The notes beneath the pieces were generated by a model, which ran no database searches, was not told the origin of the DNA, and was given only the letters and a program-made list of their open reading frames with translations. Shown piece after piece: positions 503-11,641 of a stretch of DNA of 43,456 nt. The stretch is taken from positions 1 through 43,456 of the forward strand of contig JACJJN010000028.1 in assembly GCA_016899975.1 (NCBI GenBank), read 5' to 3'. Each line of letters opens with the position of its first letter. The first letter of the stretch is position 1. The stretch is from Lacrimispora saccharolytica (lineage in GTDB: Bacteria; Bacillota; Clostridia; Lachnospirales; Lachnospiraceae). A program made the position numbers and the translations under genes.

Positions 503-889
503 TATTGTTCCGTCCTTCCCGGGACATCTATAGCTGTTCCGGTACTATGACATCTGCTGACTTCTCATGGCAAGCTTTACTCCATGGCTACGAATGTTTT
601 ATCGTCTTTGTCATGTCCATGAGACCTCCCCGGGTACTCACACGCTCTTTCCCACTTATACCTGCCCCGTCTACTGTTGGCGTTCCGTGCAGTTATTGGA
701 CTTTGGTTTGTTTGGCAACCTCATCCACGCTTCTCAGCCTATCCGGGCAACTTTTACAGGCCAGTGATTTGCCTCCGGCTTCCTTCAGACCCCACCTCAC
801 GATGACGCCCTTGCCATTGGCTGCACCCTTCCCACTGCCGGGCGGGTCAGGGACTTTCACCCGTTAGAACGTGTGCCCGCCGGGCACAC
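123..889 (-). mobile_element. Degenerate group II intron (class C-like), 5' part plus maturase fragment
   Basis: On the minus strand the sequence from 889 begins GTGTGCCCGG and soon reads GGGTGAAAGTCCC, typical of a bacterial group II intron 5' end (GUGYG) and domain I. About 385 nt of 5' intron sequence (889-503) runs straight into the maturase C-terminal frame, so most of the RT gene is deleted. Domain V and VI are not seen: an IS-like sequence replaces the 3' side. The insertion lies immediately after the T-tract of the rlmD terminator, the known preference of class C introns. The open frame on the opposite strand at 505-867 is an artefact of the intron RNA. Confidence 0.72.
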
Positions 890-2398: not shown

Positions 2399-3345
2399 AT
2401 TTCTCCTGTCTTTCGAATGTTCGACTCAAAGAACCGGTTATAACCGATCCAGTCCCCGGACGCTTCCCCGCTGGATGCGAACAATTCCGTCAGCGTTTCC
2501 ATCTTCGCATCTGCGTTGTCGGCAAGATTCAGAGCCATAGCCTCCGCCAGTGCCGGTTTCTTCGGGGAACCATACTCCAGTTCTCCATGGTGTGCCAGAA
2601 TACAGTGTTTCAGTTTGTTTTCCAGATCTGCCGGAAAACCTTCAATCTTCCTTGCTTCGTCGTGGATCATCTCAGCGCCGATCATAATATGCCCCAGCAG
2701 CTGCCCGTCATCCGTATAGTCATTCTGAGGAAATTCGGAAAGTTCCCGTGTTTTTCCGATATCATGCAGGATTGCCCCGGTGATCAGCAGATCCCAATTC
2801 AGGATCGGATATGCTTTTGCCATATAATTGCAGAAGCGTGCCACACTGAGCGTATGCTCCAGCAGCCCTCCGACAAATCCATGATGGACACTTTTTGCGG
2901 CGGAACTCATTTTAAAGCGTTTCACCATCTGCGGATCTTTGACCAGCAGATTCTCCAGAAGCTTCCGAAGCCATGGATTTTTCACCGCATTTATGTATTT
3001 CAGAAGCTCCTGATACATTTGCTCAATATCATACCGGCTGGTGGGAAGATAGTCTGCCGGATTGTATTCTCCCTCCTGTGCTTTACGCACACGTTTGATG
3101 GAAACCTGCAGGGCGCCGTTGTAGCTGCTGACATCTCCGACGATATCCACATAATCAAACACGTCAAATTCATCGATCCCCTGGGAATTCGGCTCCCAGA
3201 TCTTCGCGTCGATGGTTCCGGTGCGATCCTGAAGGATCACATTTTCGTAAGGTTTTCCATTTTTTGTAACTGCCGCCTGACGGTGCCTGCACAGATAAAT
3301 CCCTGACATGCGGCTTCCTTCGCGCAGCTCATTGATATACTTCAT
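2395..3345 (-). CDS. 3'-5' exoribonuclease, YhaM family (OB-fold plus HD domain)
   Basis: YhaM-type enzymes degrade RNA or single-stranded DNA from the 3' end in the cytoplasm. The N-terminal half is an OB-fold nucleic-acid-binding domain, followed by an HD hydrolase domain with HHGFVGGLLEHTLSV, then AILHDIGKTREL and a later HHGELEYG motif that supply metal ligands. The start at 3345 (MKYINELREG) is preferred over an upstream in-frame ATG at 3363 because GAGGAG lies 10 nt before it. The gene is coupled to rlmD by a 4-nt overlap. A good promoter lies at 3467-3495. Length (316 aa) matches the family. Confidence 0.88.
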   Translation of the reverse strand: MKYINELREGSRMSGIYLCRHRQAAVTKNGKPYENVILQDRTGTIDAKIWEPNSQGIDEFDVFDYVDIVGDVSSYNGALQVSIKRVRKAQEGEYNPADYLPTSRYDIEQMYQELLKYINAVKNPWLRKLLENLLVKDPQMVKRFKMSSAAKSVHHGFVGGLLEHTLSVARFCNYMAKAYPILNWDLLITGAILHDIGKTRELSEFPQNDYTDDGQLLGHIMIGAEMIHDEARKIEGFPADLENKLKHCILAHHGELEYGSPKKPALAEAMALNLADNADAKMETLTELFASSGEASGDWIGYNRFFESNIRKTGEI

Positions 3346-7667: not shown

Positions 7668-8375
7668 ATGGTATCCAAACAGAAAATCCTGATCGTCGAT
7701 GACGATAACAATATTGCAGAACTGATCTCCCTGTACCTGACGAAGGAATGCTATGATACCCAGATCGTCAATGACGGGGAGGAGGCGCTCCGGGCATTTG
7801 AAACCTTCCGCCCGAATCTGATCCTGCTGGACCTGATGCTGCCGGGAATGGACGGTTATCAGGTCTGCCGTGAGATCCGCCACAGTTCGGACGTGCCGAT
7901 CATCATGCTCTCAGCGAAAGGAGAAGTCTTCGACAAAGTCCTGGGACTGGAACTGGGCGCGGACGATTACATCATCAAACCCTTTGATTCCAAAGAACTG
8001 GTGGCACGGGTCAAAGCAGTGCTCCGCCGCTTCCAGGCGGCACGGCCGGTACCCGCAGCACAGCCAAACGCGAAGTGTGTGGAATACCCGGATCTGATCA
8101 TCAACCAGACCAACTATTCTGTCATTTACCAGGGAAAAGCCATCGATATGCCGCCAAAGGAACTGGAACTTCTGTACTTCCTCGCCTCCTCACCCAACCA
8201 GGTATTCACCAGAGAACAGCTTCTGGATCACATCTGGGGCTACGAGTATATCGGTGACACCCGCACCGTTGACGTACATATCAAACGTCTCCGGGAAAAG
8301 ATCAAAGATCATGAAACCTGGTCCATCAGCACTGTCTGGGGCATCGGATATAAATTTGAGGTCAAAACATCATGA
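7668..8375 (+). CDS. OmpR/PhoB-family response regulator
   Basis: This 235-aa two-component regulator has a receiver domain (about 5-120) with acidic residues D11-D13, phospho-acceptor D55 in LDLMLPG and the conserved lysine in IIKPFD. A C-terminal winged-helix DNA-binding domain (about 140-232) follows, with TREQLLDHIWGYEY and the TVDVHIKRLREKI recognition region. It should be phosphorylated by the histidine kinase encoded next, whose start overlaps its stop (ATGA). The ribosome binding site AAAGGAGG is strong. The regulated genes cannot be identified from the window. Confidence 0.93.
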   Translation: MVSKQKILIVDDDNNIAELISLYLTKECYDTQIVNDGEEALRAFETFRPNLILLDLMLPGMDGYQVCREIRHSSDVPIIMLSAKGEVFDKVLGLELGADDYIIKPFDSKELVARVKAVLRRFQAARPVPAAQPNAKCVEYPDLIINQTNYSVIYQGKAIDMPPKELELLYFLASSPNQVFTREQLLDHIWGYEYIGDTRTVDVHIKRLREKIKDHETWSISTVWGIGYKFEVKTS

Positions 8376-9781
8376 ACCGAACACTTTACAAAAAGTTCAT
8401 CCTTGCCTACGTCATTTTTGGCATTGCAGGATTCGTCTTTCTGTCCACCGTGGGTTCCCGCGTCATCGAACAGTATCTGATCGAATCCTGCAGTTCCTCA
8501 CTGACCAGGGAAGCGCGTAGCATCGCCAGCCGGCAGGCAAGCCTGTATTACAAGGAAGAGCGCACTCTCCAGTCCCTCTACAACACCCTGTCCGCACTTA
8601 GTTCTTTTCATGACGCCCAGATCTGGCTGATCAGCCCCGACGGGGAGATCCTGCTGAACACAGAGGAACCCCTGGATACGGAAACATACAAAACCATCCA
8701 GGGGTTTGATCCGGTGGAACTTGGCAGCAATTATTATTCTACGGGAGATTTTTTCGGGCAGTTTGACACAGAAATGCTCACTGTCATGGTTCCCGTCACC
8801 TCCAACTATTCCATCAACGGGTATGTTGCCATCCACCGGCCGCTCACCGATCTCTACCATGAACGGGAGTCCCTGCTCCTGCGGGTCGACCTGATGTTTC
8901 TGGTCATTTTCCTTCTTTCCTTCGGAATTCTGGCGCTTTTCGCCTTTACGGTTTACCGTCCGCTCCAGAAAATCATCCAGGGAGCCGACGAATACGCGGA
9001 AGGAAATCTCACCTATCAGATTCAAGTAGATTCCCAGGACGAATTAGGCTATCTGGCACGAACCCTGAACTACATGTCCGGGGAACTGAATAAGATCGGG
9101 GAATATCAGAAAAAATTCGTTGCCAACGTCTCCCACGATTTCCGTTCTCCGCTGACCTCCATCAAAGGCTATGTGGAAGCCATCGCCGACGGTACCATCC
9201 CGCCGGAAATGCAGGACCGCTATCTGAACATCGTCCTGTTCGAGACCGAACGGCTGAACAAACTGACCCAGAGCCTGCTCACACTGAACGATATCGACAG
9301 CAAAGGCAACATGCTGGAAATCACGAAATTTGATATCAACGCAGTGATCAAAAACACTGCCGCGGCATTTGAAGGCATCTGTACCTCGAGAAAAATCACG
9401 ATCAGCCTGGTGATTCCCTCCCAGACCCTGTATGTGTCAGCGGATATGGGGAAAATCCAGCAGGTACTCTACAATCTGATCGACAATGCCATCAAATTCT
9501 CCAACAACGATTCAACGATCACCGTAGAGACGACGGAAAAATACCGGAAGGTATTCGTCTCCGTGAAAGACACCGGAATCGGAATACCGAAAGAAAGCCT
9601 TTCCAAAATCTGGGAAAGATTTTACAAGATCGACGCTTCCCGCGGAAAAGACCGCAAAGGCACCGGGCTGGGACTGTCGATCGTCAAAGAGATCATCAAC
9701 GCCCATAACCAGAACATCAACGTGATCAGTACGGAAGGCGTCGGAACCGAATTCATCTTCACCCTCGACAAAGCGGAATGA
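8372..9781 (+). CDS. Membrane sensor histidine kinase
   Basis: The 469-aa protein pairs with the upstream regulator through a 4-nt overlap. It has a first membrane segment (about 8-30), an extracellular sensor of about 135 residues, a second membrane segment (about 170-195), a HAMP linker (195-250), a HisKA domain with phospho-acceptor H255 in FVANVSHDFRSPLTSIKGY, and a HATPase_c domain with the N box NLIDNAIKFSN, G1 box DTGIGIP and G2 box GTGLGLSIVKEI. All catalytic boxes look intact. The architecture is of the WalK/PhoR type; the stimulus is unknown. A large palindrome starts at the base after its stop codon. Confidence 0.92.
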   Translation: MNRTLYKKFILAYVIFGIAGFVFLSTVGSRVIEQYLIESCSSSLTREARSIASRQASLYYKEERTLQSLYNTLSALSSFHDAQIWLISPDGEILLNTEEPLDTETYKTIQGFDPVELGSNYYSTGDFFGQFDTEMLTVMVPVTSNYSINGYVAIHRPLTDLYHERESLLLRVDLMFLVIFLLSFGILALFAFTVYRPLQKIIQGADEYAEGNLTYQIQVDSQDELGYLARTLNYMSGELNKIGEYQKKFVANVSHDFRSPLTSIKGYVEAIADGTIPPEMQDRYLNIVLFETERLNKLTQSLLTLNDIDSKGNMLEITKFDINAVIKNTAAAFEGICTSRKITISLVIPSQTLYVSADMGKIQQVLYNLIDNAIKFSNNDSTITVETTEKYRKVFVSVKDTGIGIPKESLSKIWERFYKIDASRGKDRKGTGLGLSIVKEIINAHNQNINVISTEGVGTEFIFTLDKAE

Positions 9782-10154
9782 GGGACGGAGGGAAGAGGGA
9801 GACGCGGGGCGGGCGGTAGGTTTTTGGCTGGAGCCAACCCCATCGTTACCAGCCAACCACCTCCCGCCCTCACGCCGCGCGTGGGGCTGTGGCTTCGGTC
9901 GCCGGGTCTGGAGATATGGAAATGCAGTGCTTGCGACTACAGACGGACAGCACAGGGGACAATGTCCGACGGATGCAGAGCGGTCAGAAAACAACCGCTC
10001 CCACACCACGCCCGCCGCTCTGAAAGCCGGCGAACATTGTCCCCTGTGCTGTCCGAATGTGGAGTGAGCACGCATTCCATATCTCCAGGCACGGCGGCCG
10101 AAGCCACAGCCCACGCGCGGCGTGAGGGCGGCAGCGGCGGTCTTCGTCCGTCCC
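9782..10154. repeat. 373-bp nested palindromic element between convergent genes
   Basis: The entire gap between the kinase (plus) and trmL (minus) can fold on itself. The termini GGGACGGA (9782-9789) and TCCGTCCC (10147-10154) touch the two stop codons exactly. Further in, 9865-9898 matches the complement of about 10097-10130 with few mismatches; 9910-9921 matches 10075-10086 perfectly; 9945-9965 matches 10034-10054 perfectly over 21 bp; CAGAGCGG (9976-9983) matches CCGCTCTG. A side hairpin (TTGGCTGG with CCAGCCAA) occupies about 9826-9858, and GAGCGGT/ACCGCTC forms an alternative at the apex. It is visibly richer in G+C than its surroundings and has no believable coding frame. Confidence 0.85.
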
Positions 10155-10652
10155 CTACCACTGAAAGTTTCGGAGTTGGCCTTGCAGCTGCATGTGTTCG
10201 AAATTATGCTGCCGCAGCGCCTCATACAAAACGATTGCCACAGAATTGGCAAGATTCAGCGACCGGATATTCTCGTTCATCGGAATCCGGATCGCCGTGT
10301 CCGGATGCTGCACCAGGATCTCCTCCGGGATTCCTGCGCTTTCCTTTCCGAACATGATATAACAGTCTTCTTCATACTGCACTTCCGCATAGGTCTGTCT
10401 TGCCTTTGTGGTCGCCATATAAATTTTGGCTCCTGGGTTTTTTGCAAGAAAATCTTCGTAATTCAAATAAGTGGTCACATCCAGATCGTTCCAGTAATCC
10501 ATACCGGCTCTCTGGATTGCTTTTTCATTCAGCCGGAATCCCAGCGGCTCGATCAGATGGAGCCGTGTTCCCGTCGCAACGCAGGTGCGCCCGATGTTTC
10601 CGGTATTGGACGGGATTTCCGGTTCAAACAATACAATATTCAGCTTTGACAT
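10155..10652 (-). CDS. trmL: tRNA (cytidine(34)-2'-O)-methyltransferase, TrmL
   Basis: This SPOUT-fold enzyme methylates the 2'-O of the wobble nucleotide in certain leucine tRNAs. The 165-aa protein begins MSKLNIVLFEPEIPSNTGNI, the typical N-terminus, and carries MFGKESAGIPEEIL and the C-terminal knot motif IRIPMNENIRSLNLANSVAI that binds SAM. The start at 10652 follows GGAGAGGAAAG; an in-frame ATG at 10679 is less likely. It overlaps the preceding gene by 13 nt and is the last gene of a long operon. Confidence 0.92.
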   Translation of the reverse strand: MSKLNIVLFEPEIPSNTGNIGRTCVATGTRLHLIEPLGFRLNEKAIQRAGMDYWNDLDVTTYLNYEDFLAKNPGAKIYMATTKARQTYAEVQYEEDCYIMFGKESAGIPEEILVQHPDTAIRIPMNENIRSLNLANSVAIVLYEALRQHNFEHMQLQGQLRNFQW

Positions 10653-11641
10653 TCTATTCTTTCCTCTCCAGCATACCATTCATCCGTCTGCGGTTTGTCC
10701 AGATAGCGGATTTCCTCCCCGTTTCGGAGAATCCTTTCCTTCCCTTTCGTCGTCCGTCCGATGACCGCAGCCGGTATCTGTGCGCCGGCCAGCTTCCGTA
10801 CCAGCTGCGCGCCGTCAGGCACTGCCGCCAGCAGGGTGTCCGTGCAGAACATCTGATAGGGATTCAGGGAAAAATATTCGCAGATCTCAATGGTTTCCTG
10901 GCAGATCGGTATGCGTTTCAGTTCCACATCCAGTCCCACTTTTGCCTGCTCTGCCATCTCCCAAAGTGCCCCGAAGATCCCGCCTCTGGAGACTGCCTTC
11001 ATTTGGCAGACACCATTCTCTGCCGCAATCTTTACAGCCTCCGGAAGGTTTCGTTCCTCTCCTATTTTCACAGTATCGTTCAGGAACCCTTCGGAAAAGC
11101 ATTCCAGCAGCTGTTCTCTCTGATCGGCTGCAAGTCTGGCCGCAGCGGATCCCGCAATCGTTCCCGCAACAACCAGATCCAACTCCGGCTCAGCCTTCAA
11201 CGGCAGGCTTTTTGCCTTTCCCACTGCAGTTACAGTGATCACAAGTTTTACAAGTCCTGGAACCACTTCCGTATGGCCGCCCAAAATAACCGCTCCGTAA
11301 TGTCCTGCCGCCTGATCCAGTGTGGCAGTCAGCGTTTTCAGTTCCGGCTCGCTGTATTCCTCGGGCAGGAGGAGCTGTACCGTAACCCCTGTCGGTTCTG
11401 CCCCGGCGGCAAGCAGATGGCTGCATGCCTCATATACCGCAAACTCCGGGGCGCTTCCGGGAAATCCTGCGGAAGTTCCGCATGCGGTTACCGTCAGCGT
11501 CCCGCCTGCTTCCCCGCCGTTTCGGAAGGCTCCGTATCCGCATCCGTACTCCGGATACTGGACAACATCCTCCTGTTTTCCTTTCAACACCCTGAGCACT
11601 GAGCGGTCAAGCGCCGCCTGCGTTAGTTTTCCTTTTCTCAT
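10640..11641 (-). CDS. AIR synthase-related (PurM/HypE-like) protein
   Basis: The 333-aa protein has the PurM-like two-domain layout: an N-terminal half with ACGTSAGFPGSAPEFAVYEAC and AGAEPTGVTVQLLLP, then GGHTEVVPGLVKLVITVTAVG, and a C-terminal half with VSRGGIFGALWEMAEQAKVG. These match the HypE/AIR synthase C-terminal domain superfamily, which binds ATP and a phosphorylated or carbamoylated substrate. No hydrogenase maturation genes are nearby and the C-terminal HypE cysteine motif is absent, so a HypE role is unlikely and the substrate is unknown. It is coupled by ATGA to the VanW gene and by a 13-nt overlap to trmL. Confidence 0.75.
   Translation of the reverse strand: MRKGKLTQAALDRSVLRVLKGKQEDVVQYPEYGCGYGAFRNGGEAGGTLTVTACGTSAGFPGSAPEFAVYEACSHLLAAGAEPTGVTVQLLLPEEYSEPELKTLTATLDQAAGHYGAVILGGHTEVVPGLVKLVITVTAVGKAKSLPLKAEPELDLVVAGTIAGSAAARLAADQREQLLECFSEGFLNDTVKIGEERNLPEAVKIAAENGVCQMKAVSRGGIFGALWEMAEQAKVGLDVELKRIPICQETIEICEYFSLNPYQMFCTDTLLAAVPDGAQLVRKLAGAQIPAAVIGRTTKGKERILRNGEEIRYLDKPQTDEWYAGEERIECQS

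Follow-up and report, generated by a model that had tools for sequence, protein, structure and literature searches.

A probably once-mobile family of hairpin repeats in Fusicatenibacter accounts for an inverted repeat between convergent kinase and trmL-like genes

What kind of element fills the gap between two convergent genes with complementary sequence that runs from one stop codon to the other, and how did it come to lie there? We analyzed such a gap, which spans 373 bp (9782-10154) in a stretch of 43,456 nucleotides (the window), together with its relatives in other genomes.

The gap between the kinase and trmL-like genes

The gap is delimited on the left by the TGA stop codon (9779-9781) of a plus-strand sensor histidine kinase gene (8372-9781; ORF of 469 aa with the Pfam domains HisKA, HATPase_c, and HAMP), which was matched in all seven genomes of the genus, and on the right by the stop codon (10155-10157) of a minus-strand gene (10155-10679; ORF of 174 aa). 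The latter owes its name trmL to the original prediction, and Pfam supports its membership in the SpoU methylase family (PF00588). The complementary termini GGGACGGA (9782-9789) and TCCGTCCC (10147-10154) are present as claimed, the perfect 21-bp pair was verified in the sequence, and the arm pairs said to match in order were recovered by a repeat search as three pairs running inward, of 38 nt (92%), 34 nt (88%), and 25 nt (96%). The stretch 9770-10166 folds at -267.8 kcal/mol vs -162.5 +/- 6.24 kcal/mol for shuffled sequences (z = -16.9; none of 100 shuffles folded as low), while the 373 bp alone fold at -264.2 kcal/mol.

The view that all of this forms one nested palindrome was rejected, because three other species carry two separate inverted hairpins in the same gap, and because the left end of the window gap matches the outer end of the left hairpin; the outermost termini are the outward-facing ends of two separate hairpins. 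The best reading of the aligned sequences is that 9782-10154 would comprise a complete hairpin (9861-10154) and the outer end of a second, inverted, otherwise deleted hairpin (9782 to about 9814). The full hairpin pair is found in G001, G003, and G005, with a GNAT gene (Pfam) between the hairpins in G003, whereas among the genomes lacking the repeat, the gap contains an ordinary bidirectional terminator in G004 and G006 and another gene in G002 (by eye). When the left ~33 nt of the window gap were aligned to the outer ends of the orthologous left copies, scores of 21 (G005), 20 (G003), and 17 (G001) were obtained, compared with 17 for the best of 67 non-orthologous copies and a mean of 13.3 (maximum 20) for 1000 shuffles, the G001 score being no better than that of the best non-orthologous copy. 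By parsimony, the ancestor of the carriers would have had a hairpin pair here, of which the left member shrank to its outer end in the window genome. The precise fit to both stop codons is real in the window but not conserved: only in the window genome does the hairpin end directly adjoin the kinase stop, and in G001, G003, and G005 about 8-13 nt (by eye) lie between the kinase stop and the same hairpin end.

The putative outer end of the collapsed left copy (9782-9814, minus orientation) was delimited by alignment to the left copies at the orthologous site, and a residual spacer with a small local hairpin (9815-9860) was assigned by exclusion between the two hairpin parts. The complete right-hand element (9861-10154, plus orientation) was recognized by its arm pairs, a covariance-model match, and the 3' end CGTCC common to other copies. 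All its parts are given on the plus strand. An inverted-repeat search yielded the arms of its outer stem, at 9861-9916 on the 5' side, where the sequence is private to the window copy, and at 10080-10134 on the 3' side. Between them lies the family core (9917-10079), matched by covariance model R1 at 163.8 bits (E = 5e-36; the window copy was in the training set). Conserved box 1 forms the 5' side of the core (9917-9941) and, in alignment A1, shows bulged A's at about 9921 and 9926, T.G/G.T wobbles, and tandem G.A partners at 9935-9936; box 1' forms the 3' side (10057-10079), with its G.A partners at 10062-10063. The inner stem is the 21-bp pair (9945-9965 with 10034-10054), inside which CAGAGCGG (9976-9983) pairs with CCGCTCTG (10015-10022) as an apical stem. 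The conserved 3' end (..TTCGTCC..; 10143-10154) abuts the stop codon of the trmL-like gene.

A hairpin family dispersed in four Fusicatenibacter genomes

The sequence, whose absence elsewhere had been named as evidence against mobility, does recur in the window genome and three relatives. The 373-bp query gave 14 matches in the window's own genome, self and its reverse included, and among 31 genomes searched (own, same genus, family, and order) four gave matches, each of them a member of the same genus. With a covariance model trained on 34 cores, 78 copies were located in four of the seven Fusicatenibacter genomes after the strands of each place had been merged by hand: 14 in the window genome (G000), 12 in G001 (one a weak, partial match), 13 in G005, and 39 in G003, with no place in G002, G004, and G006. 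Since all genomes are draft assemblies in which several contigs end in or beside copies, these numbers are lower bounds, and as copies were found by their core, those that lost it are under-counted. Contigs end at or beside hairpins at G000:C44:60, G003:C182:70, G003:C149:113, G003:C66:177, and G005:C27:6, among others; assemblies seem to break at hairpins, and assembly could have generated a few of the long arms seen at contig ends. We placed 75 of the 78 copies in loci, omitting G005:C46, G005:C27, and G001:C4.

On a wider scale, 199 of 200 genomes spread over the family gave no match under stricter filters, the exception being G000; this sample held G000 and G002 of the genus and none of the other carriers. 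An exact core 19-mer was found in 19 stretches of a collection of 84,980 species, from which records near the window genome were possibly omitted, and these belonged only to Candidatus Fusicatenibacter merdavium, Ca. F. intestinigallinarum, and Fusicatenibacter sp. MAG.350. A plasmid, phage, or viral source was rejected, as plasmids and phages gave no match by blastn and viral contigs, searched by the exact core 19-mer only, gave none either. Searches of the open-licence PMC literature brought up no such hairpin family in Fusicatenibacter or Lachnospiraceae.

In each copy, a conserved asymmetric core is flanked by arms that are private and nearly perfect, in the order C-rich leader, CAG, outer stem, core, other arm, and CGTCC from 5' to 3'. 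The CAG...CGTCC ends were seen in 59 of the 75 copies, namely those retained by filtering for flank length and for a 3' end starting with GTC/GTA/GTT, and the shared terminal letters are few. The core is mostly 140-166 nt long (shortest 68 nt; common core ~163 nt). Its boxes on both sides pair imperfectly, with two bulged A's three or four pairs apart, wobbles, and tandem G.A, and the T.G and G.T wobbles are identical in all 34 aligned copies. As a rule, copies of a dispersed hairpin repeat are alike over most of their length; here, the inner and outer stems are private to each copy. A comparison of the 3' outer arms gave 14 matches at E 1e-3, of which only one between different sites exceeded 45 bp (L040/L123, both in G003). 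Outer arms have a median length of 55 bp (range 31-160, the search having gone up to 160 nt) and are 94.7% Watson-Crick in a set of 62 copies that omits 13 of the 75: the window copy, nine at or near contig ends, and three with arms below 20 nt. The outer arms of the window copy (56 and 75 nt) were entered by hand in some tallies, the 5' arm only in the purine-direction analysis described below.

Some copies form inverted pairs with their GTCC ends outward, as in the gap studied here in three other species; ten such pairs, with spacers of 161-1059 nt, occur among the 75 copies. Pair decay is also seen at a second site (by eye), where G003 has a full pair, G005 little beyond the two outer ends, G001 a degenerate hairpin, and G000 nothing, and where G002, G004, and G006 have no element. 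Long hairpins would be prone to deletion, so that pairs would collapse to single hairpins, outer ends, or nothing. At a third site (by eye), a hairpin follows a kinase stop in G003, and plain terminators are found in G000 and G001.

The spacers contain further features. Between the G003 hairpins of L043, the GNAT acetyltransferase gene (2588-3070) is accompanied at ~3130-3290 by a second repeat with GTGTTTGAAAATTGC-like inverted ends (by eye), and similar GCGTGTTTGAAA ends are present in the L037 spacer and near L100. The spacers L042 2405-2814, L039 2521-2765, L041 2342-2694, and L105 2313-2504 contain half-hairpins along with direct repeats (by eye), an arrangement that tandem duplication and deletion at the hairpins could have produced. 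The flanks of the two members of L037, a pair in G000, match L135 and L128 on two different G003 contigs, which suggests that a large insertion or rearrangement may have occurred between the hairpins. The hypothesis that pairs carry genes as cargo was dropped, since a GNAT ORF was found in one of ten spacers, the other nine being 161-490 nt long and several of them containing half-hairpins and direct repeats (by eye).

According to crude ORF calls, the flanking ORFs are in tandem for 24 of 65 units, convergent for 18, and divergent for 13, the other 10 units being unclassified; as ORFs overlapping an element by more than 40 nt were rejected, the location between genes is partly imposed, and this tally counts the window unit as tandem although it is convergent. 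A hand tally based on the same crude ORFs, omitting the window copy, placed 22 of 37 stop-facing 3' ends within 30 nt of the stop. Start-facing ends lie 16 to 441 nt from the start, several with TTGACA shortly after the end (by eye). Among copies that stand alone in a stretch of at most 20 kb (43 kb for the window), 34 of 45 point along the G-rich strand (P = 0.0008), or about 22 of 31 when orthologous sites are merged by hand; the window copy is among the exceptions.

Evolution of cores and arms

Orthology of sites was judged from flank similarity, not trees. The kinase is 88-93% identical at the protein level between carriers (52-61% at 4-fold sites) vs 71-75% in comparison with non-carriers. 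In 14 of 16 groups of orthologous sites, core-box identity is 87-100%, and in the other two, N and O, it is 0.64-0.80; the outer arms at orthologous sites are 45-79% identical apart from one comparison that reached 97% and three that had fewer than 20 columns. Mean box identity was 0.895 (n = 29) for orthologous vs 0.825 (n = 1600) for other copy pairs, which the P value of this comparison treats as independent; the boxes were located by search expressions in which most letters of CTTGCGACT and GGAGTGAG are already specified and which failed in 5 of 75 copies. Conservation of the boxes at orthologous sites, in copies that were themselves found through the core, points to constraint at each place rather than free decay. 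Of 35 copies, only 19 have their best cross-genome core match at the orthologous site, so that exchange between copies is also conceivable.

In alignment A1, 97.9% of cells are paired vs 86.9% after shuffling, with 195 cells showing two-sided change, 11 one-sided change with the pair kept, and 36 unpaired. None of 500 shuffles matched the alignment on any of five measures, and sliding the partners out of register reduced pairing from 97.9% to 28-50%. Likewise, the inner stems of orthologous copies (28 of 31 copy pairs, 13 positions each) showed 215 unchanged pairs and 116 changes from one Watson-Crick pair to another, along with 17 one-sided changes (5 with G.T) and 16 two-sided changes with a mismatch. 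This set was drawn from the 71 of 75 copies with at least 9 of 13 complementary letters, and the orthologous pairs in it are not independent of each other.

The mismatches bear on the level at which pairing is kept. Selection at the RNA level should strongly prefer G.U over A.C. In the outer arms, we counted 92 G.T and 84 A.C mismatches (85 vs 68 in 62 of the 75 copies; P = 0.20), and in the inner stems 10 G.T and 19 A.C among 923 cells. The lack of a G.T excess over A.C makes it more likely that arm pairing is maintained in the DNA, plausibly by template switching. A single event of this process alters both sides of a stem at once; PMC8794818 proposes it for rRNA stems and predicts that its intrastrand form causes an excess of G-C and U-A pairs. 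The excess in the outer arms is in G-C (1900 vs 1087) and A-T (637 vs 369), a misfit with the simplest form of template switching. Template switching is an inference from these patterns, and selection for pairing could give similar arms.

The arms also have a direction. Purines predominate in the 5' arm of 63 of 70 copies, or of 56 of 62 in the set with exclusions, and the purine content of this arm is 0.70 in the 45 copies that lie along the G-rich strand vs 0.54 in the 23 opposite ones (Spearman 0.62). This analysis of 68 copies counts orthologous copies separately and includes some contexts of only a few kb. A purine bias of the arms that depends on the direction of the element relative to local GC skew should not be expected of a perfect palindrome.

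Origin and possible function of the repeat

The repeat is ordinary in kind but represents a new family with unusual evolution, and it was probably mobile in the past. With reasonable rather than high confidence, we regard it as an old, dispersed, once-mobile hairpin, shaped by mobile spread, recognition of its flawed core, rewriting of its arms, and, in the window, deletion of the left partner. The family would have spread as a mobile hairpin whose flawed core was recognized by a putative protein, as the conservation of the core suggests, and this protein would probably act on single-stranded or extruded DNA. Each copy's arms would since have been rewritten individually by template switching at replication, in which one arm serves as the template for the other, so that complementarity persists as the sequence drifts.

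How the family spread is the point on which several alternatives differ. A MITE-like element had been proposed, and the repeat is indeed dispersed (14 places in the window genome among the 78) and present or absent between species at some sites. A conventional MITE would consist of the ends of a DDE transposon brought together and moved in trans by its transposase; the non-coding nature of the repeat, its outward ends GGGACG/CGTCCC, and its species-specific presence agree with this, but its arms are not common to different sites, with L040/L123 as the single exception (>45 bp, E 1e-3), few terminal letters are shared, and no target duplication was recognized at the one filled/empty site read closely by eye, which makes a conventional MITE distinctly unlikely. 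A recent MITE burst was rejected, as the arms are not shared and the flanks of 11 of 13 window-genome sites resemble a copy-bearing site in another carrier (tblastx, our reading); L046 and L099 gave no such flank match. A REP/REPIN-type origin, with spread by a Y1 (RAYT-like) transposase that was later lost, is very improbable: REPs are far shorter than the hairpin units found here, and PF01797 (Y1 transposase), which was the only partner protein sought, is absent from the carriers G003, with the most copies, and G001, occurs once each in the carriers G000 and G005, and is commonest in the copy-free G002 (four, with one in the non-carrier G004). A REP/RAYT system thus fails on its transposase, which does not track the repeats, and no partner protein that moves or binds the repeat was found in this search. 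In its favor stand the preference of lone copies for the G-rich strand (34 of 45) and the inverted doublets of hairpins, which resemble REPINs as described in PMC3116915. An integron attC-like recombination site acting as a folded single strand with extrahelical bases would account for the bulged bases, the mismatch zone, and the variable end; we find it scarcely credible, as no attC core boxes were noticed and the copies are dispersed, some in inverted pairs, rather than arranged in a cassette array.

The remaining alternatives ascribe a present role to the copies. It is possible, though doubtful, that each copy is a DNA hairpin that serves the host at a transcription-unit boundary, where a protein would bind the flawed core in extruded or single-stranded form and selection would hold the core, while template switching at replication would keep rewriting the private arms, which would remain complementary free of any selection on their sequence. 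We consider it unlikely that the copies act in cis as insulators or as two-way terminators or 3' end stabilizers selected at each site. Copies do occupy spots where other species have plain terminators (two sites, by eye), the crude ORFs put a stop codon no more than 30 nt from 22 of 37 stop-facing 3' ends, the core is conserved in place, and the C-rich leader before the hairpin resembles a Rho-loading site; however, a simple scan for a G+C stem followed by a T-run found no intrinsic-terminator-like site on either strand of 9782-10154, 13 of 55 classifiable units lie between divergent ORFs, and at one site sister species lack the element or have its ends only. The suggestion of a structured RNA held insofar as the covariation is real, but the G.U excess expected of an RNA is absent. 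A multi-copy family of structured non-coding RNAs is accordingly very unlikely despite the strong covariation and the fixed internal-loop motifs, given that G.U does not exceed A.C in the outer arms or the inner stems (10 vs 19), although a scarcity of G.U would still be compatible with an RNA role if template switching operates as well. A known RNA family was rejected, as no Rfam family matched 9782-10154 at gathering level; the best of the sub-threshold matches, which were only miRNA hairpin models far below threshold, was MIR1437 (55 bits vs 168). Elsewhere in the window, positions 512-806 (minus strand) carry two Rfam group II intron matches, D1D4-3 (97.7 bits) and D1D4-1 (48 bits).

Under our preferred reading of an old, once-mobile hairpin, the 'nested palindrome' would be explained as a hairpin pair with one member deleted. 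The wider interest lies in dozens of copies that have mainly an asymmetric core in common while their long arms are individual, with differences between species at the same site that are paired and show few G.T intermediates. They provide many natural replicates for a question usually argued from rRNA, whether paired changes arise by selection or by template switching, and hence a natural experiment on how two mirror-image halves of DNA stay matched.

The family shares single features with several known systems. Like MITEs, its copies are small, non-coding, and dispersed, but they lack common inverted-repeat arms, a recognized target duplication (at the one site read), and a known parent transposon. 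ERIC, RUP, and BOX elements are likewise imperfect palindromes dispersed in one clade; they keep much the same sequence along the palindrome, whereas what the Fusicatenibacter copies have in common is for the most part the core boxes and a few terminal bases. Integron attC sites are hairpins with extrahelical bases and a variable end, a likeness that is offset by the lack of a visible cassette array. REP/REPIN (BIME) repeats likewise form inverted doublets of hairpins, as described in PMC3116915, but the Fusicatenibacter repeats are much longer, have private arms, and are not tracked by PF01797. Finally, RNA stems proposed in PMC8794818 to be maintained by template switching resemble our copies in their two-sided changes and asymmetric pair frequencies; they are rRNA helices of 2-10 bp, whereas the hairpins described here have DNA arms of 31-160 bp, with an excess of A-T rather than U-A.
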